DNA from: Microcaldota archaeon
GTDB lineage: Archaea; Micrarchaeota; Micrarchaeia; Micrarchaeales; Micrarchaeaceae
NCBI GenBank assembly: GCA_021811435.1
Contig: JAJZOR010000009.1
Span: 1 to 42,189, forward strand
Length of the DNA stretch: 42,189 nucleotides
Direction: 5' to 3'
Shown one piece after another: positions 28,942 to 41,620 of this stretch (its first letter is position 1; the number at the start of each line of letters is the position of its first letter). The notes under the pieces were generated by a model that saw only the letters and a list, made by a program, of their open reading frames with translations, ran no database searches and was not told the DNA's origin. The translations under genes and the position numbers were made by a program.

Positions 28942-30468
28942 ATGGGACGAAAAAAGCTCTACCTTATAGGGATGGATTCGGCACCGCTCTGGATAATAAA
29001 GGACTTCTATAAAGAGTACAAGATGCGCGGATTCGGTGAGTTCCTCGACCGCGGCGTGCTCACTGACATGGAATCCACGATGCCGCCGATGACGGGACCA
29101 TCATGGCCGAGCATATACACCGGGGTAAGGCCAAGCGAGCACGGCGTGCCTGAGTTCTTCAGGATGGAGCCCAACTACACCAAGAGCGTGGTCTACTACG
29201 ACCCCTCTATCAGGGCACCGTTCTGGGACAAGTTATCTGCCAACGGGCTGAAAAGCCTTGTCGTAACGCCTGCAATGCTTGTTCAGACGCGTGACGACCC
29301 CAACGTTGACATGATTACGGGTTTCCCGCTGCCGGCGAAGTTCAGTTCGGGAAGGGTGAAGGCAGCAGCAGACAAGTACGCGTTCAAGGGCGAGCCGGAG
29401 GTCGAGGTCGGGCTGAAGAAGGGCGAGATAACCCTGGAGGAGGGATCGGACGGGTACCTCGAAGGCACCAAGGCGCGGAGCATGGTCAGCAAGGAGCTGA
29501 TAGATAGGAACGACTACGACTTCGCATTCGTGTGCTTCACCGAGCAGGACAGGATGCAGCACTACGCGCTGAACAAGCCGGAGTGGAAGCGGTGCGTGCT
29601 GCCCATCTATAAGGAGGTCTCCGACTTCGTGGAATGGGTGCTGAAAAGGGCCAGGGAGGAGCGGGCCACGGTCATGCTCATATCCGACCACGGCGCGCAG
29701 CCCATAAGGAGGAAGTTCCTCATGAACGGCTGGCTCATAAACAACGGCTACTCCGCGATGAGTAAGCGGCTCGAGGAGGACATGAAGCGCACCGGGAAGA
29801 AGAGCAGCGTGAAATACGAGCTAAGGGAGACGCTTATCAAGAGCGGGCTCAGGAAAAAGGTCTACGACAGGCTGCCGAGCACCGGCAAGAAGCTGGTCAA
29901 GGGCGCGCTGGAGAAGGCGCTGGCCGGCACATCGTCGGGGGACTACACGCGCCTGCACGACTTCGACTACGACATGGGCAGGACGCGGGCGTTCGCTAGC
30001 ATAGCCAACTGCCCGGTTACCACGATATTCATAAACGACGGGAGATTCGAGAACGGCGTTGTTAATCCTACTGAGAAGAAGGCGCTGAAAAGGGAGCTCA
30101 TGGCAAAGCTGATGAAGATAAAGGGAGAGGACGGCAAACCGCTGATGGTCGGTGCATACGACGCCGACGAGTACTACGAAGGCACCAGGCTGTTCATAGC
30201 GCCCGACATAATGGCAGAGATAAGGCCTGGCTACATAATAGACGCATTCGGCTATCTGAAGAGCGGGGGCCTTTTCATGGATCCCGAGCCTCCCAAGAGC
30301 GGGGACCATATCAGGAACGGGATATTCGGGGCGGTGAGCTATGGCAGCAGGCTCGATTATGCCGGGATAATGAAGAAGAAGCTGTACGTCTACAACGTGG
30401 AGCCGACGGTGCTGAAGTACTTCGGCATCAGGAGGGACAACGACAAGAGGTACGGTCCCATATTCTAA
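28942..30468 (+). CDS. Alkaline-phosphatase-superfamily phosphodiesterase/phosphatase
   Basis: A 508-residue enzyme of the type I phosphodiesterase/nucleotide pyrophosphatase group, close to archaeal AP3A-hydrolase-like proteins. Metal ligands and nucleophile: LIGMDSAP (Asp12), TMPPMTGPSWPSIYTG (Thr51 likely nucleophile), FTEQDRMQHY (about 201-210), ISDHGAQ (about 248-254) and GDHIRNGIF (about 453-461). There is no signal peptide, so it works in the cytoplasm; the substrate could be nucleotide, sugar nucleotide or lipid-linked phosphate. The open frame runs upstream to 28450 but that part is a shadow of the GT4 gene; ATG 28942 gives the conserved N-terminus. It overlaps the next gene tail-to-tail by four bases. 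Confidence 0.88.
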   Translation: MGRKKLYLIGMDSAPLWIIKDFYKEYKMRGFGEFLDRGVLTDMESTMPPMTGPSWPSIYTGVRPSEHGVPEFFRMEPNYTKSVVYYDPSIRAPFWDKLSANGLKSLVVTPAMLVQTRDDPNVDMITGFPLPAKFSSGRVKAAADKYAFKGEPEVEVGLKKGEITLEEGSDGYLEGTKARSMVSKELIDRNDYDFAFVCFTEQDRMQHYALNKPEWKRCVLPIYKEVSDFVEWVLKRAREERATVMLISDHGAQPIRRKFLMNGWLINNGYSAMSKRLEEDMKRTGKKSSVKYELRETLIKSGLRKKVYDRLPSTGKKLVKGALEKALAGTSSGDYTRLHDFDYDMGRTRAFASIANCPVTTIFINDGRFENGVVNPTEKKALKRELMAKLMKIKGEDGKPLMVGAYDADEYYEGTRLFIAPDIMAEIRPGYIIDAFGYLKSGGLFMDPEPPKSGDHIRNGIFGAVSYGSRLDYAGIMKKKLYVYNVEPTVLKYFGIRRDNDKRYGPIF

Positions 30469-31364
30469 ATATAGCGTATGCGTATAAGGTCCGCGTAGCC
30501 CGACAGCTTCGGCGCGATGGCTTCTCCGTGCAGCTGCATGTTCGCTGTGTCTATCAGCGAGTTGTTGAGTCCTATCGCGCGGCGCAGCGCATCGTCTTTT
30601 CCGCCGTCCGCTTTCAGCATCACCTGCACTATGTTGGGCCTGAACTTGGCGGTGTCGTTCCCAGTAGACTTCCTGCTTGAGTCGCTCAGGCCCATGAAGT
30701 TGAGTATGTCATCGCGCATCTGGAATGCTATTCCGGCGTACTTGCCGAATTCGTACAGCTTCGAGGCCAAACCTGGACTTTTGGCGCATACCGCAGACAC
30801 GCTTGCAGCGGTCCCTATGAGCGATGCGCTCTTCAGGGTCGCGACATTCATGTAGTCGCTTACCTTGGGCACCTTCCTGCTTCTCTGGAATTGGAAGTCG
30901 AGTATCTCGCCCGCGCACATAGACATGGCCGCATGCGATATCTCGTCTATCACCGCGGGCCCGTATTTCGATGACAGCAATATCGACTTCGATATGAGCG
31001 CGTCCCCGGCCAGTATGGCGGCTTCGATGCCGTACTTCATATGCACCGCTGGCCTGCCCCTCCTCACAGCGTCCCTGTCTATTATATCATCATGCACGAG
31101 GGAAGCGGTGTGCAGCAGCTCTATCGCCGCCGCCAGGTCTATGAAGTCGGACGGCTTCTTTCCTATCGCAGAAGCGGAGATGAACACAAGCGCAGACCTT
31201 ATATATTTGCTTCTGGCAGAGACCAGGTGCATCGCCGCCGCGGAAAGCTGCGGGTTTATGAAGTCCCTCGTCCCGAGCGACCTGAGCCTTGCCGAGGCCC
31301 TGCGCATGCTCATTTTTACCTGATACGGCAAATCGAGGTCAAAGCTGGTGTCAATCTTTATCAT
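30465..31364 (-). CDS. Polyprenyl diphosphate synthase (GGPP synthase-like)
   Basis: A 299-residue trans-prenyl diphosphate synthase of the archaeal IdsA group, making the C20 (or C15/C25) chain for membrane lipids. The first aspartate-rich motif is DDIID (92-96) followed by RRGRP (101-105). The second is QMRDDILNF (Asp218, Asp219), where the usual DDxxD is shortened to DDILN. The start ATG 31364 (MIKIDTSF) is preferred to the TTG at 31430. The strong TATA-like cttatataagg at 31460-31470 lies upstream with a leader of about 75 bases. Confidence 0.92.
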   Translation of the reverse strand: MIKIDTSFDLDLPYQVKMSMRRASARLRSLGTRDFINPQLSAAAMHLVSARSKYIRSALVFISASAIGKKPSDFIDLAAAIELLHTASLVHDDIIDRDAVRRGRPAVHMKYGIEAAILAGDALISKSILLSSKYGPAVIDEISHAAMSMCAGEILDFQFQRSRKVPKVSDYMNVATLKSASLIGTAASVSAVCAKSPGLASKLYEFGKYAGIAFQMRDDILNFMGLSDSSRKSTGNDTAKFRPNIVQVMLKADGGKDDALRRAIGLNNSLIDTANMQLHGEAIAPKLSGYADLIRIRYI

Positions 31365-31602
31365 CGAACCATGCCGCGCTTGGGGTAGATGCGCATGCTG
31401 CCTTAGGTGCATTGCGTAGAGGCAGCGCAAAGGTGAAGGCCGGGTTTGTTGCGCATCCGCTTATATAAGGTGCAATAATGTTATAATACCTTTTATTCCG
31501 GATATCGGAGCGGGCCCTTATGGCGGGCCTGGAAATTCGGCACGGCGAAACGGAACCATAATTAAACTTGCCGCCAAAACTGCTTTACTAGCGGCCGATC
31601 GT

Positions 31603-32854: not shown

Positions 32855-33496
32855 ATGTACGGTCTTGTCTACGCAGTTGTCTCATCAGGCTCCGGTTTCT
32901 ACGCGTACGCGATGCAGCTAGTATCCAGCTACGGCGTGCTGGCGGTGTTCATACTCATGGCCTTGGAGGGCTCTTCCCTGCCGATACCGAGCGAGGTCGT
33001 TCTGCCGCTCGCTGGCGGGCTTGTCGCAGCAAACCCAAGCGCCTTTAATTTCTGGGTCGTGCTCGCCGCGGCCATAATGGGCAGCACAGTGGGTCTTGCA
33101 GTCGACTACTACATAGGCTACTTCATAGGCAAGGACATAGTCTACAAGCACCTCAACCTGTTCAGGGTGAAGAAGAGCACCCTTGACAACTTCGATGAGT
33201 GGTTCGACAGGAACAGGATCGCGGTAGTGTTCCTGAGCAGGTTCATACCGGTGTTCAGGACCGTAATGAGCATCCCCGCAGGGTTCGCCAGGATGGACAA
33301 GAAGGCGTTCTTCGCGTATTCCATAGCCGGGACCTGCATTTGGGACATCGCCCTAATGGCCATCGGCTTCTACACGGTGAATTCTACAACCACACCGTCG
33401 TCCGCTATATTCGCAATGACTATAGCAGGGGTTATGGTGTTGGCGGTTTACCTCATATACAAGTATTCCAAGGTGCATTCGCGCAGGAATAAGTAG
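32855..33496 (+). CDS. DedA/VTT-domain membrane protein
   Basis: A 213-residue membrane protein of the DedA (SNARE-associated, VTT) family. ALEGSSLPIPSEVVLPLAGG (about 39-58) carries the conserved acidic/Pro pattern, the YYIGYFIGKD region follows, and FLSRFIPVFRTVMSIPAGFARMD (about 128-150) holds the family's conserved arginines. Relatives act as proton-dependent lipid scramblases or flippases, including of polyprenyl-phosphate carriers. It lies 41 bases before aglB, the dolichol-sugar-using oligosaccharyltransferase, so recycling of that carrier is plausible; this is inference. Confidence 0.9.
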   Translation: MYGLVYAVVSSGSGFYAYAMQLVSSYGVLAVFILMALEGSSLPIPSEVVLPLAGGLVAANPSAFNFWVVLAAAIMGSTVGLAVDYYIGYFIGKDIVYKHLNLFRVKKSTLDNFDEWFDRNRIAVVFLSRFIPVFRTVMSIPAGFARMDKKAFFAYSIAGTCIWDIALMAIGFYTVNSTTTPSSAIFAMTIAGVMVLAVYLIYKYSKVHSRRNK

Positions 33497-33537: not shown

Positions 33538-36105
33538 GTGGCTGGTGTGATGCAGAAGGAGTGGGAGAAGATCCAGAAGGAACTAGGGAAGGCGCCCAAC
33601 AAGGGAGACGCCCCGATACAGGGCCCGCAAGAGGCCGAACAGTCAAATCGGCCTGGACTTCTGGAGCGGCTGTCCGCATTCGGGCCGCAGAACAGGTACG
33701 CGTTCGCCGCAATGTTCATAGCAATAATAATAATCGCCATATGGCTCAGGCTGGGCATGGTGCAGTATCAGGGCTTCTTCGAGCCTGACGGGTTTTTCCA
33801 TTACTCCGTGATAAGGGCGGCAGTGGCCAACGGGTTCAATGTACCGCTGACCCTCGGCATCTCCGGATGGCCGCAGCATAATGCTGTGACAGAGCCGGTA
33901 GGGCTGTACCTAGTCACCCTGCTGCCTTACATGGTGTTGCAGTATGCCGGCGTGAGCTACTACACAATAATGAGGCTGGTGCCTATCGCATTCGGGATAC
34001 TCGATGCGGTAGGCGCATATTTCCTGGCCAGGCTGCTGCTGAAGAGCAGGGTTCTCTCCCTCCTGGCCATGCTGCTGGTCGCTGTTTCCAGCGGAGACAT
34101 CGCGAGGACCGCAGCGCTGATATACAGGGGCGACAGCTTCGTCACGATATTCGTCATAGCCGCGCTTCTGCTGGCCTATCTGGTGTTCCGTTCGGAAGGC
34201 CGCAAGCGGTACGCCTGCGCAGCCGGTTCTGGCGTCGCGCTGAGCCTTGCGGCTGTCGTGTGGGGCGGCGCCTCGTTCGCCTTTATCGTTTACCTAGTAG
34301 CCCTGCTCCTGCTTGTGGTCTACGCCTTCGTGGCCGACAACAAGCGCCTGCTCGAGGACGGCGTCCTTGTGGCCGCGTCGCTGTTACTGGCGTACCTGCT
34401 GGAGCATCTGTACATGTCCCTCTACATAATAAGGGGCCACCCCGCGCTTTCCGGCACCGGCTTCTTCGTGTTCTACGTTCCTGTAGCCCTGGGGGCCGTC
34501 CTAGCGCTCGTGCTCCTTAAGAGGATGGACGGTATAGGCTTGGTGAGGACGTGGGCAAAGAGGGTTATGCTCGTGGCCTGCGCCTCTGTGGTAGTGGTCG
34601 TGGTGATGCTCATATTCTTCGGCTCCTACCTGCAGGACACAGCTAGCGGCGGAGGCATACTGCTGTCGCAAAACGCGCTGCTGTCCACAATACAGGAACT
34701 CCAGCCGCCCACTTATGCCTTCCTATGGACCAGCTTCGGGTTCCAGCTGTACCTGGCGCCCATCGGCGTAGTCCTTTTCCTGCTGCTCGCAGGCGCAGTG
34801 GACCCGGGCCGCAGCGCGCAAGAGTCCGGCACGGCTGGCAACCACACGGTCATGGTAATTGCAGTTATAATCTATTACATGTCTGCATTCTTCGCCAGCT
34901 ACTCAATAATTTCGTTCCTCCCTACGGCAAACGAGCAGGCCACAGTTTTCACGTACATGGAGCTGATACCTATAGCGTTGGCCCTGGCCCTGCCCCTGCT
35001 GGACCGGCGCATCAGGGCCACCTCTGGGCTCAGGCTAGGGCAGCGCGGGATGCTGGCAGGGTTCGCCATACTGATCGGCTACCTCGCAGTGACCTTCTAT
35101 CTGGCGATAAACGCGCAGAGATTCAATTCCCTCGTGTCCGTGCCGCTGGCGATATTCTCGGCATACGGGGTCTACGCCGCGTGGAAGCTGCTTTATGACG
35201 GCGCCGGAAGCATCAAGGTCTGGGTAGGGACCGCCGCAGCAGTATTCGTCGCCGTGGTATTGATATACGGCATATACATAACTGCGGTCGAATCTATGTA
35301 TACTGCGCCGGCCGACGGAATAAACACGCAGTTCCTCCAGGCGATGTCATGGATGAAGAACAACACCGCCCCCAATGCCACCGTATTGGCGATCTGGCCG
35401 GACGGCAGCGTAGTCGAGGGCTGGGCCAACAGGACCAGCCTCATGGACAGCGTGGGCGGCCAGACCGCAGACATAATATTCAACTACTCGGACTTCCTGT
35501 TCAGCACTGACAACAGCTCCAAGTTCCTGTACCAGTACGGCAAGCCGCAGTATCTCATAGGGAGGGAGTTCTGGCTGCAGGAACTGGGCGGCATAGCTAC
35601 CGAGGGCAACCTGAGCAACACCATGAGGCCCGAATTCGGCTACATCAACTTCAACGGCTACAGCGAGCAGCAGAACTCCACGTATAGGGCGTTCATCTAC
35701 ACGTCCATCAATTACACTGCGCTGCTGCTAGTGCCATCTTCCAGCCAGGCCCAGAGCGGATCGAGCGTGAAAGCATACATAAAATGCAATAAGCCGTGCC
35801 AGGGAGGCTCCGAGTCCTTCCAGCTGATGAAGAACGTGATGTTCTACAACTCGTCCGACGGCAACTACAGCGAGATAAGTTCGCCGTCGAACACTGCGGT
35901 GAACCTCACGCTGTTGATACTCTACAACGGCACCAGGACGATAAGCGCCGCAGTGCTGGGTTCCGCGCTTCCAGAGAGCAACCTCTTCAAGATAGGGCTG
36001 CTGTGCAGGATAGCGGGGAAGTGCCCGTACATAAACCCGAACGTCACCCTGACTCCGGTGTACCAGAACGGCGACACGACCATACTGAAGGCGACCTACA
36101 AGTGA
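33538..36105 (+). CDS. aglB: Oligosaccharyltransferase AglB/Stt3
   Basis: AglB moves a glycan from a dolichol carrier to Asn in N-x-S/T sites on exported proteins. The protein has 855 residues with about 12-13 membrane helices up to residue 580 and a C-terminal outer domain. FEPDGFFHY (about 80-88) is the first acidic catalytic motif and IYRGDSFVT (about 194-202) the second. The WWDYG position reads AIWPDGSVVEGWANRTSLMD (about 617-636): the acidic residue and the following GWANRTSLMD are kept, but the second Trp and Tyr are replaced. The start is GTG 33538, possibly leaderless; ATG 33550 is an alternative. It converges with the giant surface protein gene. Confidence 0.92.
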   Translation: MAGVMQKEWEKIQKELGKAPNKGDAPIQGPQEAEQSNRPGLLERLSAFGPQNRYAFAAMFIAIIIIAIWLRLGMVQYQGFFEPDGFFHYSVIRAAVANGFNVPLTLGISGWPQHNAVTEPVGLYLVTLLPYMVLQYAGVSYYTIMRLVPIAFGILDAVGAYFLARLLLKSRVLSLLAMLLVAVSSGDIARTAALIYRGDSFVTIFVIAALLLAYLVFRSEGRKRYACAAGSGVALSLAAVVWGGASFAFIVYLVALLLLVVYAFVADNKRLLEDGVLVAASLLLAYLLEHLYMSLYIIRGHPALSGTGFFVFYVPVALGAVLALVLLKRMDGIGLVRTWAKRVMLVACASVVVVVVMLIFFGSYLQDTASGGGILLSQNALLSTIQELQPPTYAFLWTSFGFQLYLAPIGVVLFLLLAGAVDPGRSAQESGTAGNHTVMVIAVIIYYMSAFFASYSIISFLPTANEQATVFTYMELIPIALALALPLLDRRIRATSGLRLGQRGMLAGFAILIGYLAVTFYLAINAQRFNSLVSVPLAIFSAYGVYAAWKLLYDGAGSIKVWVGTAAAVFVAVVLIYGIYITAVESMYTAPADGINTQFLQAMSWMKNNTAPNATVLAIWPDGSVVEGWANRTSLMDSVGGQTADIIFNYSDFLFSTDNSSKFLYQYGKPQYLIGREFWLQELGGIATEGNLSNTMRPEFGYINFNGYSEQQNSTYRAFIYTSINYTALLLVPSSSQAQSGSSVKAYIKCNKPCQGGSESFQLMKNVMFYNSSDGNYSEISSPSNTAVNLTLLILYNGTRTISAAVLGSALPESNLFKIGLLCRIAGKCPYINPNVTLTPVYQNGDTTILKATYK

Positions 36106-36109
36106 CTAT

Positions 36110-39100
36110 CTATTGCTGCAGGCGCGCCCGCCGCCTGGTCGGCCTGCGCTGCCGATTCATGTAGAAGACAATCGATGCAGCGGAGAGCAGCACCAGTATA
36201 GCTACTGCGATGCTGACATTGCCGTAGTCTAGCTGGAATATGCCTATCTGGAAGTTCGCCACGCTCTGGTTAGGCGCGTAAGAGTAGTTGTACTCCTGTG
36301 TGGGTTGATAAAGTCCGGAGAACGGTCCGCTCTGCGCGTAGAACTCGCTCGCCCCTGAGGAATTTGCTATCGGCGTTTCCATGAAAGTCTGTGGCTCAGG
36401 ATATGGGTAGCCGTAGTATCTGGCGGTTATCTGATGCGGGCCTATGCCGCACACTGTTGTGCTGAAGCTGAACTGTCCCGTAGAGTTAGTGAGCGTTATG
36501 TTCATCAAGCCTACCTGCGATGAGAGCGTGCCCGTGCCGTTTGCCATAGTGGGGATGCAGTAAGCCACCTCGCCGTTGCCCAGCGTCTTTATCGCATTTT
36601 TCGGGTCATATATGTTGCAGTCAGGCGGGGATGTCTGCAGCAGGCTCACAGGAGGTGCTGGGCACATGTGGCTCTGGTTGAACTGGGTGGCGAATGTAGT
36701 CATGTTGCCTTCAAGTGCGCCATACAGCCCCTCGCCGACAGGCGCCGCAGTGCTGTTGGCAGGGTCGGCTTGTATGCAGCCCGTATAATTCAATGCATTG
36801 TACGGGAAGGCGCACTTGAGATCGTATTCCAGATACGCTTTCAGCCCCTGAGACAAAGTGCCTCTGGGCGGTTGTCCTATCGGCGGCAGGTCTCCGCCAT
36901 AAGCCGGATTGTAGAAGTTGAGGTTGTAGTCATAATACAGGTAGATTGGCTTGCCAGCAGGCAGCGGGTGGAAAATCGAGCCAGAGGAGCTCTGCTCCCA
37001 CGGGGTGTCGAAGCCAGCGGTGCCGTTTATGTACAAGGTGGTCTGGTTGGGCGCGGACACGTTGGGGTGCGCAGTCACCGAAAGCTGTATCGTGGTTATG
37101 TTGGCGAAGTCCACGTCGAATGGCATGTACACCGTGTTGTTGAAGCGGTCCACGTAGGTATATATGAGCCTGTTGTAGCCCGGCAGGTAGCTGTTATGGG
37201 TCAGGTTGAGGAGCATGCCATTGAGGTGCGTAGACTCGTGGTAGACGGCGAAGAGCTCAACCGGAGGCTTTGGTCCGGTGGCGTTGCCTATGACAGAATA
37301 ATTGAAACCCGAGGATAGGCCGCCCGGCGGTTTGTTTATCGAATAGTAATATCCGCCTGCTGGGTTTCGCAGGCCTATTTTGCCCAGGCTGGAAGCTGAG
37401 CCGCTTTGCGGGAAGCTTTCCTCTATCGCGTAGCCCGGGTATGAACCCTGCATCACATCGTACTGCTGGTATGTCTGGTTCTGGAATCCCTCCAAAGTAT
37501 ACGGGTTTATTATCGGGGACTTGCCGCTCTGCGTTGTGCCGAACGTCTGGTTTACGTATATCTCGCCGAAGACCCTGCTCGTGAATATCGCGTAATTTAT
37601 GTACGGCGGGATTATCAGCGCAGCATCGGAAAGGTTGACTTCATATGGCAGCCCCAATCCAGACTGCTCAAGATAGGTCGGCCCGCCCTCGATCTGGCCT
37701 ATTATTGAAGGCTTAGGCGAGTACCGCTTGGTGTCGACCTGCCCGTAGGTGAACTCCGTAGTCGTGGTCTGCGAATCGCTGGCAGGGAACGAGCAATATT
37801 TGTGCGAATACGGTTGTGGCGGCCTAGACTGGGAGCATACGTCTATCGTGGTGTAATACGGCCCGCTCTGACTGTAACTGAAGTATGGTGGGTACGGGTA
37901 TGATGAATAATAATAATCGTAGTACTGATATTGCCATGGCGGGTTTTGTGATTCACAAGTGCTGCCAGGCGGCCAAGGCTGCCCGGCGCTGTTTTTGAGC
38001 TGCTCATTAGTGTACGTCTGCGTCAGCTGGTAGGTAACGTTGTAAGGCACCAGCACGTAGCCAGAAATCTTGCTCGTCAGGTTTATCGGTCCGAAATACG
38101 GGCTCACTCCTGTGCCCTGATAATTGAAAGTATTATTGCCAAAGCCGGGCAAATTGCTTGCTTTGGTGCCTCCAGGAAATGTTCCGTTGTTGGTCAGGTT
38201 GTTGACTCCGCTCTGCGTAGCGCCGGAGCTTCCTGGTATGGCTCCGGAACTGGGCACGCTGGTGGCCGGAGCCAAGAAGACCGAAGGCGTGCCCTGGCTC
38301 TCTATATACTCGAACGAGCTAGGCACGCCTGCCACTGGTGGGTGCATGTTAGATATCTCCGGGTTCGGGGTGCAGGCGCTCGGGGTTATTATAGAGTCAG
38401 TATAACATGTATACGGCGAATCTGCGCCAAAGGAGAGCTTCGTGTAGTTCTGTATCAGCGGTTTTAACGCAAGAAGCTCAGCAGGTCCACGGGTATTGCT
38501 TCCAAATCCATTGTATTTCATTATCACATTTGCTATAATATAATCAGTGCCGTTGAAGTCAGAGGAGAAGCCAATATTGCCCAAGTTAGATTCTCCGTTA
38601 ACACAGGATGCTCCGCCAAAGAGATCCGACACTTCCTGCGGGTTGCACAATGGCATCAACGGCCCGACTGGCAGGAACCCGTTGTACGTCTGGCTGGTAG
38701 GGTTGTTGCTGCAGCCAACCGCGCAGTAGGCTATCGAACTGCCGCTTGATATGCTTATGTTGGCCGACAGAGGCCAGCCGTAAGGCGGAAAACCCACATT
38801 CAGGTTGGACTGGCTTGCGGACGTCGTCGCCGCATAATTTGTGGCCGATGGCTGCGTGTCCGCATATGGGAATGCCGCCATAGGTATTTCCTTGCCCGAT
38901 GGCAGGAAAGCGCGCAGCATCAATATATTCGAATAGAGCGTGGAAGGCCCTGACAACCCGCCGTTGTTGTTGCTAACGCCGAAATACCAGTCGTCCAATA
39001 CGTATATGATGCCTTGATATACTGCTATACCGAGTGGGAAGTGATTGCCTTCTATGTCATTGGCGCTGCATCCGCTGCTGCAGAAATTCGCGTACGCAGA

Positions 39101-41620
39101 GGCTATCTGGCTGTTCTCAAACGGCCCCCCATTCTCCATATACTTAGAAATGTTCAAGTTCACTGAGGAGTTGGAATATGAAAGGCTCATGTTAGAGGCG
39201 TAGACGAAGGCCTGCTTCGCGGGGTTGGCCGAAGCGTTTACGCCGCCGACCGCGTATACCAGGACGTTTCCGGCATACGGGCTGGCTATATAAATCGCCT
39301 GCCCTCCGGGCGATACGGCGAACTCTGATGTATGGAGGAAGTTTGTGACCCCGGTCGCCAGCGGCACTGACGTGTTCACTGCAACCACCTCCTTGTTGTT
39401 GTCCTGCACGCTGGGTGGGTGTATCTCCGCTATGCCTATCACGTTGGCTGGATTTGAGGAACTGTAATAAACCTGGCCCATTACGAATATGTCCCCTCCG
39501 TAGTCCGTAGCTATCGCAGACGGCGCCAGGTTATTCGTAGCAGTATTGCAAGCTACGCCTGCCCAGCACAGCACCCCGCTTAACGGGTTGCCGTTGACCG
39601 TAGATATGACAGAATAATTGGTTATGTACATAGTCTGCGACTGCTCCGCCGTGATATTCGCCCAGTAATTGCGCCACTCCTGCTGCCATTGGCTGCTAGT
39701 GGTGTTCGGTGGCAGTGTATTCGGCTCGGTATTGCTCGTGTTATAGTAGCCTTCAGGTATGAATCGCGCGGTATAAAGGATAACGTTAGAGCTGCTGCTC
39801 CAGCAGTACACGCAGCCGGCTGTAGAGTTCAAGATGTATACGTAGTCGTTAGGCGCAGAAGTTATGAACGATGGATTGTATATCGAGCCTCCGCCGTATT
39901 TGCCTATCGGGCCTGCGCTTATGAGCCCGCCTATCCTCAGCCCTGCGCGTTTTAATGTATTATTAATGGATGTCGAAGCGGTTATCAGGCTTACTTCCGG
40001 GCTGCTTAATCCATTAGGGTTAGGATTCGAGAATGCGATTACGTTCAACGGAAACGCAGTGAGTTGGCCTCTGGAGCCAGTGCTGACATTAGCGAACAGT
40101 ATCGAACCTGTGTCTATCGGGAATGGATCAAGGTTGGTATTGGGATTGAGATAGTTATGCGGGCTGTAGAGGTCGAAGGACAGGTTGAGGTAGGACAAGC
40201 CTCCGGGCGATGCAGTAGTGGAAATCGCCGGCATGCTTATGTTGTAAAGGAAATACGGCAAAATTGAGACGTTTTCATAGAATAAAGACGCCTTCGCAAC
40301 TACGCCCTCCTGAACGTTGTTGCCGACGTCGCAGAAGTAACCTCCAGCGCACCACACAGTGGTGTACTCTCCAGGCGAAGGGCCAGCATATACCACTACC
40401 CCGGTTTCAGTCGGCCCGCCCTGCGGCGGGTTCGTTATCTCGCCATCGCCGGATATATAAGTATATCCTGATCCGCATGCCGTGGATACAAGAAAATCGT
40501 CGTATAAAGCCCCCAAACAGGCATCAGTATAAAATAATCCGCCATTAGGCGCTGATGTCTGTGTCCATGGCCCGTACGACTGGCTTTCTACTACGAGCTG
40601 CGTAGTGCCGGTTTGCGGGAGAGAAGATGGCACTGATATATTGGCGTTCTTTATGGACAGCAGTTGTGCAGTGGATGCGTAGTTGTACGTGTAATTGCAC
40701 CATACCTGCCATGACTCAGATGCCCGTTGGGTATAATAATTATTTTGGCATGGATTTTTGGCCCCTGGATAATAATTGCAGTCTGTTCCGACATAAAATT
40801 TGGCTACCTGGCCCTGGGTAGGTACTATTTTTGAGTTGTTTATTACGAGATGCTGTACGTACGGGTATTGCGTGGTATTCGGATATAAATAAAGCTGGTT
40901 TAACTGTTCGGCCTGGTTGTTATTAACCTGGTCCAGATTGGCGTAGTTGGAGTACCATGACCATATGCCATACTGCGATTGGGACGGCTCGCCGTTGTAT
41001 ATGTATGATTTCGAGTCGTAACCGCTGGCAAGAATAGGGCGCAGGCAGCTAGATACAGAACCGCATGTCTCTCCGGAATACGCGATATCGTTCACAGTAG
41101 GCCTAGCCAGGTTGCTTGCTACCACCTTGACCTGCGAGGCGGCTGGGTTTGTGTCAGTCCATGACGTTGTAGTTAGTACTCCTATGTTGCTCTGCAACTT
41201 ATCAGTATTTGCAAGGCACTGATCGCCCCCTATGTAAGCGTTAGGGGTGGCGTTGAAATACTCCACAGTCTCGGTAGGGTTAGGCGCAAAAGGGCATGTT
41301 ATGAGGTATTGATTTTTGTTGCTCTGCTGGTTGTAGCTTAGCACTGCCGCAGTCACAGGCAGATTCTGATGAACGTTTCCGTATGGAGTGCCGGGTCCCA
41401 AAGTATCCTGTGGCCCGGTATACGTTGTATTTATTGTCTCTGATGTATTCACAGAGCAGGATCCGGATGATGAGAGTTCAGAGCCCGAGATCATTCCATA
41501 CGAGCAGCTATGCGTTGTGGTCGTCGCGTAGGCTATGCTGCCGTACGATATAACCAGTATCAGTTGGGCTAGAAGTACAGCGATAGAGAATATATTGCAA
41601 GGCTTTGAATTGCCTGACAT
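36110..41620 (-). CDS. Giant secreted, membrane-anchored surface protein (1836 aa)
   Basis: The N-terminus is a signal peptide (IFSIAVLLAQLILVISYGS, then A-x-A near TTTTH). The C-terminus has one membrane helix (VSIAVAILVLLSAASIVFY) and a very basic tail, typical of an archaeal cell-surface anchor. In between it is extremely rich in Asn, Ser, Thr, Tyr, Pro and Gly with dozens of N-x-S/T sequons and frequent paired cysteines. Around 690-940 repeating strands such as GGDIFVMGQVYY, AIYIASPYAGNVLVY and IIYVLDDWYF suggest an NHL or beta-propeller section; an Ig-like part lies near 1700-1770. Its candidate roles are S-layer protein or adhesin. No family is recognised across the whole. The stop lies five bases from the aglB stop. 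Confidence 0.8.
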   Translation of the reverse strand: MSGNSKPCNIFSIAVLLAQLILVISYGSIAYATTTTHSCSYGMISGSELSSSGSCSVNTSETINTTYTGPQDTLGPGTPYGNVHQNLPVTAAVLSYNQQSNKNQYLITCPFAPNPTETVEYFNATPNAYIGGDQCLANTDKLQSNIGVLTTTSWTDTNPAASQVKVVASNLARPTVNDIAYSGETCGSVSSCLRPILASGYDSKSYIYNGEPSQSQYGIWSWYSNYANLDQVNNNQAEQLNQLYLYPNTTQYPYVQHLVINNSKIVPTQGQVAKFYVGTDCNYYPGAKNPCQNNYYTQRASESWQVWCNYTYNYASTAQLLSIKNANISVPSSLPQTGTTQLVVESQSYGPWTQTSAPNGGLFYTDACLGALYDDFLVSTACGSGYTYISGDGEITNPPQGGPTETGVVVYAGPSPGEYTTVWCAGGYFCDVGNNVQEGVVAKASLFYENVSILPYFLYNISMPAISTTASPGGLSYLNLSFDLYSPHNYLNPNTNLDPFPIDTGSILFANVSTGSRGQLTAFPLNVIAFSNPNPNGLSSPEVSLITASTSINNTLKRAGLRIGGLISAGPIGKYGGGSIYNPSFITSAPNDYVYILNSTAGCVYCWSSSSNVILYTARFIPEGYYNTSNTEPNTLPPNTTSSQWQQEWRNYWANITAEQSQTMYITNYSVISTVNGNPLSGVLCWAGVACNTATNNLAPSAIATDYGGDIFVMGQVYYSSSNPANVIGIAEIHPPSVQDNNKEVVAVNTSVPLATGVTNFLHTSEFAVSPGGQAIYIASPYAGNVLVYAVGGVNASANPAKQAFVYASNMSLSYSNSSVNLNISKYMENGGPFENSQIASAYANFCSSGCSANDIEGNHFPLGIAVYQGIIYVLDDWYFGVSNNNGGLSGPSTLYSNILMLRAFLPSGKEIPMAAFPYADTQPSATNYAATTSASQSNLNVGFPPYGWPLSANISISSGSSIAYCAVGCSNNPTSQTYNGFLPVGPLMPLCNPQEVSDLFGGASCVNGESNLGNIGFSSDFNGTDYIIANVIMKYNGFGSNTRGPAELLALKPLIQNYTKLSFGADSPYTCYTDSIITPSACTPNPEISNMHPPVAGVPSSFEYIESQGTPSVFLAPATSVPSSGAIPGSSGATQSGVNNLTNNGTFPGGTKASNLPGFGNNTFNYQGTGVSPYFGPINLTSKISGYVLVPYNVTYQLTQTYTNEQLKNSAGQPWPPGSTCESQNPPWQYQYYDYYYSSYPYPPYFSYSQSGPYYTTIDVCSQSRPPQPYSHKYCSFPASDSQTTTTEFTYGQVDTKRYSPKPSIIGQIEGGPTYLEQSGLGLPYEVNLSDAALIIPPYINYAIFTSRVFGEIYVNQTFGTTQSGKSPIINPYTLEGFQNQTYQQYDVMQGSYPGYAIEESFPQSGSASSLGKIGLRNPAGGYYYSINKPPGGLSSGFNYSVIGNATGPKPPVELFAVYHESTHLNGMLLNLTHNSYLPGYNRLIYTYVDRFNNTVYMPFDVDFANITTIQLSVTAHPNVSAPNQTTLYINGTAGFDTPWEQSSSGSIFHPLPAGKPIYLYYDYNLNFYNPAYGGDLPPIGQPPRGTLSQGLKAYLEYDLKCAFPYNALNYTGCIQADPANSTAAPVGEGLYGALEGNMTTFATQFNQSHMCPAPPVSLLQTSPPDCNIYDPKNAIKTLGNGEVAYCIPTMANGTGTLSSQVGLMNITLTNSTGQFSFSTTVCGIGPHQITARYYGYPYPEPQTFMETPIANSSGASEFYAQSGPFSGLYQPTQEYNYSYAPNQSVANFQIGIFQLDYGNVSIAVAILVLLSAASIVFYMNRQRRPTRRRARLQQ

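Follow-up and report, generated by a model that had tools for sequence, protein, structure and literature searches.

The WWDYG motif of OST enzymes has been described as conserved in all AglBs (PMC4287180). In the structure of A. fulgidus AglB, Asp47 of the first DXD motif holds the metal together with two residues of the second, Asp161 and His163; the TIXE residue Glu360 acts through water, and WWDYG and the DK/MI motif form the Ser/Thr pocket (PMC8342417). The C. jejuni PglB variants W457S, W458C/R, D459V, Y460N and G461D are all inactive (PMC3527161). It has also been proposed that paralogs within one organism share one pocket type, a rule that concerns the DK/MI type (PMC3703281). No description of Micrarchaeota AglB paralogs was found in the literature as far as it was accessible; an earlier mention may exist in Nikolayev et al. 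2020, on AglB across Archaea (cited in PMC12153357), or in Gfrerer et al. 2022, on the S-layer of a Micrarchaeon.

The window, that is, the whole analysed stretch of 42,189 nucleotides, is contig C5 of a 1.095-Mb genome (25 contigs, 93% complete) and encodes a divergent member of this family, referred to below as the WPDG protein (Table 1). Its reading frame starts with GTG, or with ATG at 33550. Hydrophobic segments are numerous up to about residue 588, and a soluble C-terminal domain follows.

Table 1. Features of the window around the WPDG-type paralog and the motifs located within it.
Feature	Position	Strand	Basis or remark
Polyprenyl synthetase	30465-31412		near the WPDG paralog
VTT/DedA-family membrane protein	32855..33496	+	PF09335, E = 7e-20; ~40 bp upstream of the paralog, same strand
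WPDG-type AglB/STT3-like membrane glycosyltransferase paralog	33538..36105	+	855 aa
E82-P83-D84, first external-loop acidic motif (first DXD)	33781..33789	+	alignment
R190-T-A-A-L-I-Y-R197-G-D199, second DXD position read as RxD	34105..34134	+	alignment
T384-I-Q-E387, TIXE motif of external loop 5	34687..34698	+	alignment
R528-F-N, Arg in late TM region, aligned with RF of f15 AglBs	35119..35127	+	alignment
I619-W-P-D-G-S-V-V-E627, remodelled WWDYG position	35392..35418	+	alignment, 51 rows; codon variation
1836-aa secreted-type, sequon-rich protein	36110..41620	-	convergent to the paralog

The WPDG protein reached no curated family cut-off (PF02516, PF21436, TIGR04154), and Pfam gave no match to it, including STT3 (PF02516) and STT3-PglB_core (PF21436). 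Among the curated OST models, TIGR04154 archaeo_STT3 (NCBIfam) alone matched it, at residues 132-610 (E = 3e-19); the score was 69 bits against a cut-off of 450, and the match ended before the WWDYG region. The WWDYG-bearing AglB of the same genome likewise fell below the PF02516 and PF21436 cut-offs. Pfam STT3 by itself misses both copies here, since a PF02516 search of this genome found neither. When the WPDG profile was compared by hhalign with a profile of 15 WWDYG-bearing AglBs of the class, the match extended over 541 columns, spanning the TM region and the beginning of the C-terminal domain, with a probability of 99.8 and E = 1.7e-27. By homology, the predicted protein qualifies as a member of the STT3/AglB/PglB family. 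The nearest named relative is a Candidatus Micrarchaeota MAG (L031), which was also the one further family member found in the scan of genome contigs; no relatives were found in the viral contigs scanned. An AlphaFold model made from two sequences had a pLDDT of 34 and was not used.

The earlier note had reported the letters WPDGS in an AglB-like protein, and AIWPDGSVVEGWANRTSLMD indeed forms residues 618-637 of the 855-aa protein. The register that it gave them, with Asp on Asp and the second Trp lost, was wrong. Three methods, phmmer, hhalign and MAFFT L-INS-i (117 sequences), placed WWDYG without a gap on I-W-P-D-G (residues 619-623, nt 35392-35406), which rules out the alignment of WPDGS with WWDYG. 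The phmmer match to yeast Stt3 (2lgz) was weak (E = 2), yet gapless over the motif (aligned stretch VLAIWPDGSVVEGWANRTSLMDSV). The residues around the motif (AxRTxLxD) also align with known OSTs without a gap. Because WWDYG corresponds to I-W-P-D-G in these alignments, the acid has moved by one residue while the second Trp (Trp2) and the Gly have been retained across the WPDG family. The first Trp (Trp1) is replaced by I, L, V or F, the Asp by Pro in 45 of the 51 rows and by T, S or I in the others, and the Tyr by an acid (49 D, 2 E; n=51). WWDYG itself is absent from the clade, all 51 rows reading [ILVF]-W-x-[DE]-G, and no normal WWDYG was found elsewhere in the 855-aa protein.

This altered motif is strongly conserved. 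W-x-[DE]-G-S occurs in 51/51 homologues read, W620, G623, S624 and E627 are invariant in the 51 rows, and the motif is kept among sequences with 31-67% identity to the window protein (25-row alignment). When the phylum's 295 genomes were scanned with a pattern of degenerate codons for WPDG[ST]V[VI]E, which also admits a few other residues, 113 genomes gave a match. All 113 belong to f1 and f2, two families of the window's order; the other families had no match, and the reversed control gave zero matches. The matches carry many synonymous codon versions. Since the motif persists at 31-67% identity and despite synonymous codon variation across 113 genomes, it is under selection. A profile search gave strong matches in f1 and f2 only; in the rest of the class there were six weak matches, with E from 1e-4 to 1e-6. 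Some f1/f2 genomes, e.g. G006 and G052, have no match, and several have two or three copies. Extra copies in G222 and G090 (L098 141-2426, L099, L100 and L101 203-2486), some of them in tandem with the main copy, read W-S-E-G, W-I-D-G, W-T-E-G or W-T-D-G, with a variable residue at the Pro and the acid at the Tyr position retained. Three proteins of 516-551 aa (L094, L108 and L109; G071 C7, G223 C17 and G236 C57) are related to the TM part of the family; they carry EPDVY or EYDIY as first motif and TIAEL/SIIET, and a pattern search found no W-x-D-G in them.

The other OST motifs were compared in the same way. The Asp of the first DXD (D84 column) was found in all WPDG rows (51/51), all AglB rows of the order (37/37) and all AglB rows of the class (29/29); D84 aligns with this invariant Asp and corresponds by motif to Asp47 of A. 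fulgidus AglB. E387 of the TIXE motif is present in 51/51 WPDG rows, with T or S at 384 and I or T at 385, as is the Arg of the RF motif (R528 column). The second DXD reads R-G-D, R197 and D199 being present in 51/51 rows, so that the DXD/DXH metal ligands were not found in the clade; the same columns hold DHD in the short AglBs of family f15. RxD alone is no argument for lost activity, because the canonical AglB of the order also lacks a standard second DXD (GEQLLEP). In these canonical AglBs (G000 C7 6959-10117 and homologues), GEQLLEPWG stands at the expected second DXD, and they bear an N-terminal extension of ~100-200 residues. For a DK or MI motif on the kinked helix, the alignment past residue 640 is too weak. 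As single WWDYG changes inactivate PglB (PMC3527161), a working WPDG enzyme must carry compensating changes.

The earlier note had taken the WPDG protein for the AglB of the organism. However, the same genome encodes a second, normal AglB with WWDYG, which the note had named as an observation that would speak against its view, on contig C7 (G000 C7 6959-10117; 1052 aa; WWDYGDW(INW); AWWDYGDWINWFG, VLAWWDYGDWINWFGNSNAVLRGDN). This rules out the WPDG protein as the only AglB of the organism, and the variant does not mean N-glycosylation without WWDYG, because the genome encodes the canonical enzyme too. With the 1023-aa WWDYG AglB L091 as query, a canonical AglB was found in 114/118 genomes of the order. 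The suggestion of a lineage-specific variant that widens the known motif holds in spirit, the variant being clade-conserved in one order among the genomes searched, although not as the sole AglB of its organism. In a maximum-likelihood tree (quick method, SH-aLRT support), the WPDG proteins formed one side of a branch of length 2.0 with support 100, and the WWDYG AglBs of the order grouped with one another among the class's AglBs. The tree suggests that the order's ordinary AglB, inherited vertically, is the WWDYG enzyme. The WPDG protein is, as judged from these comparisons, a second, separate AglB-like paralog, order-specific among the genomes searched. In the tree, the long branches of the WPDG proteins and of the short f15 AglBs meet, and this join was not relied on for the origin of the paralog. 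In the same genus, a canonical AglB lies inside a 1680-aa frame (L145 1-5040, G001 C22), a possible fusion or extension, with an S-layer gene adjoining. The short f15 AglBs (L063, L064 and L067; G189, G188 and G187) are ~680 aa long, and in their genomes the AglB model has a further, longer match.

The gene neighbourhood links the paralog to the S-layer. A gene for an S-layer protein of ~1000 aa (PF05124, E 7e-14 to 5e-19) is the divergent neighbour of the WPDG paralog, with 0-2 small frames between, in 9 of 21 loci, and lies within the stretch read in 11/21; by the canonical AglB it was found in 1/19 loci. The difference gave Fisher p = 0.009 (9/21) and 0.0015 (11/21), values that are optimistic since the genomes are related. 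The linkage was seen in both families, f1 and f2. It is broken in the genus of the window, whose own genome has the S-layer gene on another contig (C6 106441-109398). Two other genomes of the genus likewise have the VTT/DedA gene next to the paralog, and the product of this gene may be a polyprenyl-phosphate translocase. The 1836-aa protein, which had no match in Pfam, is a candidate acceptor.

Sequons were counted in these surface proteins against expectations from shuffled sequences. N-x-T was found 228 times in the S-layer proteins (107 expected), 124 times in the products of the next gene (30 expected) and 84 times in the 1836-aa protein set, made up of three homologues (39 expected). In soluble-type proteins it was not enriched (48 vs 42 expected), and neither N-P-T nor, in the S-layer set, N-x-S was enriched over shuffled sequences. 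In an unbiased scan of spacings 1-3, N-x-T ranked first among the 400 residue pairs at spacing 2, and did so in each of the three sets. The high scores that other spacings gave came from rare residues with few occurrences, and no other sequon-like pair was of comparable, broad enrichment in the S-layer and neighbour proteins. These counts support N-glycosylation at N-x-T in these organisms, which may be the work of either enzyme, and for the putative WPDG enzyme the usual N-x-T sequon is more likely than a new one. The WPDG protein itself has 14 N-x-S/T sequons, 13 of them within or adjoining the C-terminal domain, and one, N631-R-T, adjoins the W-P-D-G motif. Across the WPDG family, the C-terminal domain holds N-x-T at ~4x expectation.

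Taken together, these features are consistent with an OST-type transferase that would serve the S-layer with a remodelled +2 pocket beside the canonical AglB, the most likely of the readings, though we hold it to be evenly balanced between right and wrong. This second, divergent STT3/AglB member, inherited within one Micrarchaeota order beside the canonical WWDYG AglB, would transfer a polyprenyl-linked glycan to the Asn of N-x-T sequons in surface proteins, above all in the S-layer protein. The kept acids D84 (first loop), D199 and E387 (TIQE) would serve in catalysis. The +2 Thr pocket would be rebuilt, with Trp2 kept and the carboxylate provided from the Tyr position (D/E622), one residue on, the Asp position now being Pro. 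We infer OST activity, a division of labour and this pocket geometry alike. Several points speak against this reading. In C. jejuni PglB, a single change at any of the corresponding positions W457, D459 and Y460 destroys activity (PMC3527161), and an Arg replaces what would be the first Asp of the second DXD, the metal ligand Asp161 in A. fulgidus AglB (PMC8342417). The canonical AglB by itself could account for all of the N-x-T enrichment, and the S-layer gene of this genome is on another contig. The fuller form of the reading is tentative: an active OST with a rebuilt +2 pocket would share the cell with the WWDYG enzyme, would be specialised for the S-layer and might have a sequon preference of its own.

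Unlikely, by comparison, is an OST with a changed acceptor rule: having lost the Asp and Trp1, which hold the +2 hydroxyl, the enzyme may accept another sequence or a relaxed sequon. In its favour, the residues by which known OSTs hold the +2 Thr have been replaced here and the replacement is fixed, and a WWDYG paralog in the same organism breaks the rule of one pocket type (PMC3703281), if that rule is extended to this motif. Against it, the pair scan found N-x-T dominant with no comparable pair, and the clade retains the TIXE strand, by which the sequon backbone is read. Slightly less probable is a GT-C enzyme that has departed from protein N-glycosylation, its acceptor being a lipid, a polysaccharide or a Ser/Thr hydroxyl on surface proteins. 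Such a departure would fit the alteration of both the second DXD and the acceptor motif, the VTT/DedA neighbour, and the fact that paralogs may diverge in acceptor; against it, the C-terminal domain, TIXE and the first-loop Asp are all retained and the S-layer protein gene is repeatedly adjacent. Doubtful, and the least favoured of these three, is a pseudo-OST, a non-catalytic partner that would bind and present the S-layer protein or the glycan donor to the canonical AglB, which host genomes as a rule also carry. The Arg at a metal-ligand position and the loss of WWD would agree with it, yet it would be unusual for a pseudoenzyme to keep D84, D199 and E387 invariant at 31-67% identity. A sequencing or assembly artefact or a decaying gene is refuted with near certainty by open frames and by the motif in 113 genomes with differing synonymous codons.

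A clade in which strong selection maintains a different motif is a natural experiment on the pocket: on which of its parts are needed, and on whether the sequon rule is open to change. It also means that a DPANN order with ~1 Mb genomes keeps two OST-type enzymes, one of them S-layer-linked.

Compared with the known AglB/STT3/PglB OSTs of the GT-C fold (A. fulgidus AglB-L, C. lari PglB and yeast Stt3), the WPDG protein has the same arrangement of many TM helices followed by a soluble C-terminal domain, and shares the first-loop Asp, the TIXE Glu, and Trp2 and Gly of WWDYG. It differs from them in [ILVF]-W-[PTSI]-[DE]-G and in the RxD at the second DXD. The archaeosortase-associated OST described by TIGR04154 is matched in part and below cut-off. 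The canonical AglB of the same order shares the family and a TIXE-type motif (TVEE) with the WPDG protein, whereas it has WWDYGDWINW and 1052 aa, belongs to another clade and hardly ever adjoins an S-layer gene. In the RF-Arg and the complete second-DXD region, the WPDG clade aligns best with the short f15 AglBs of the same class, but these carry WWDYS as motif and DHD as second DXD.
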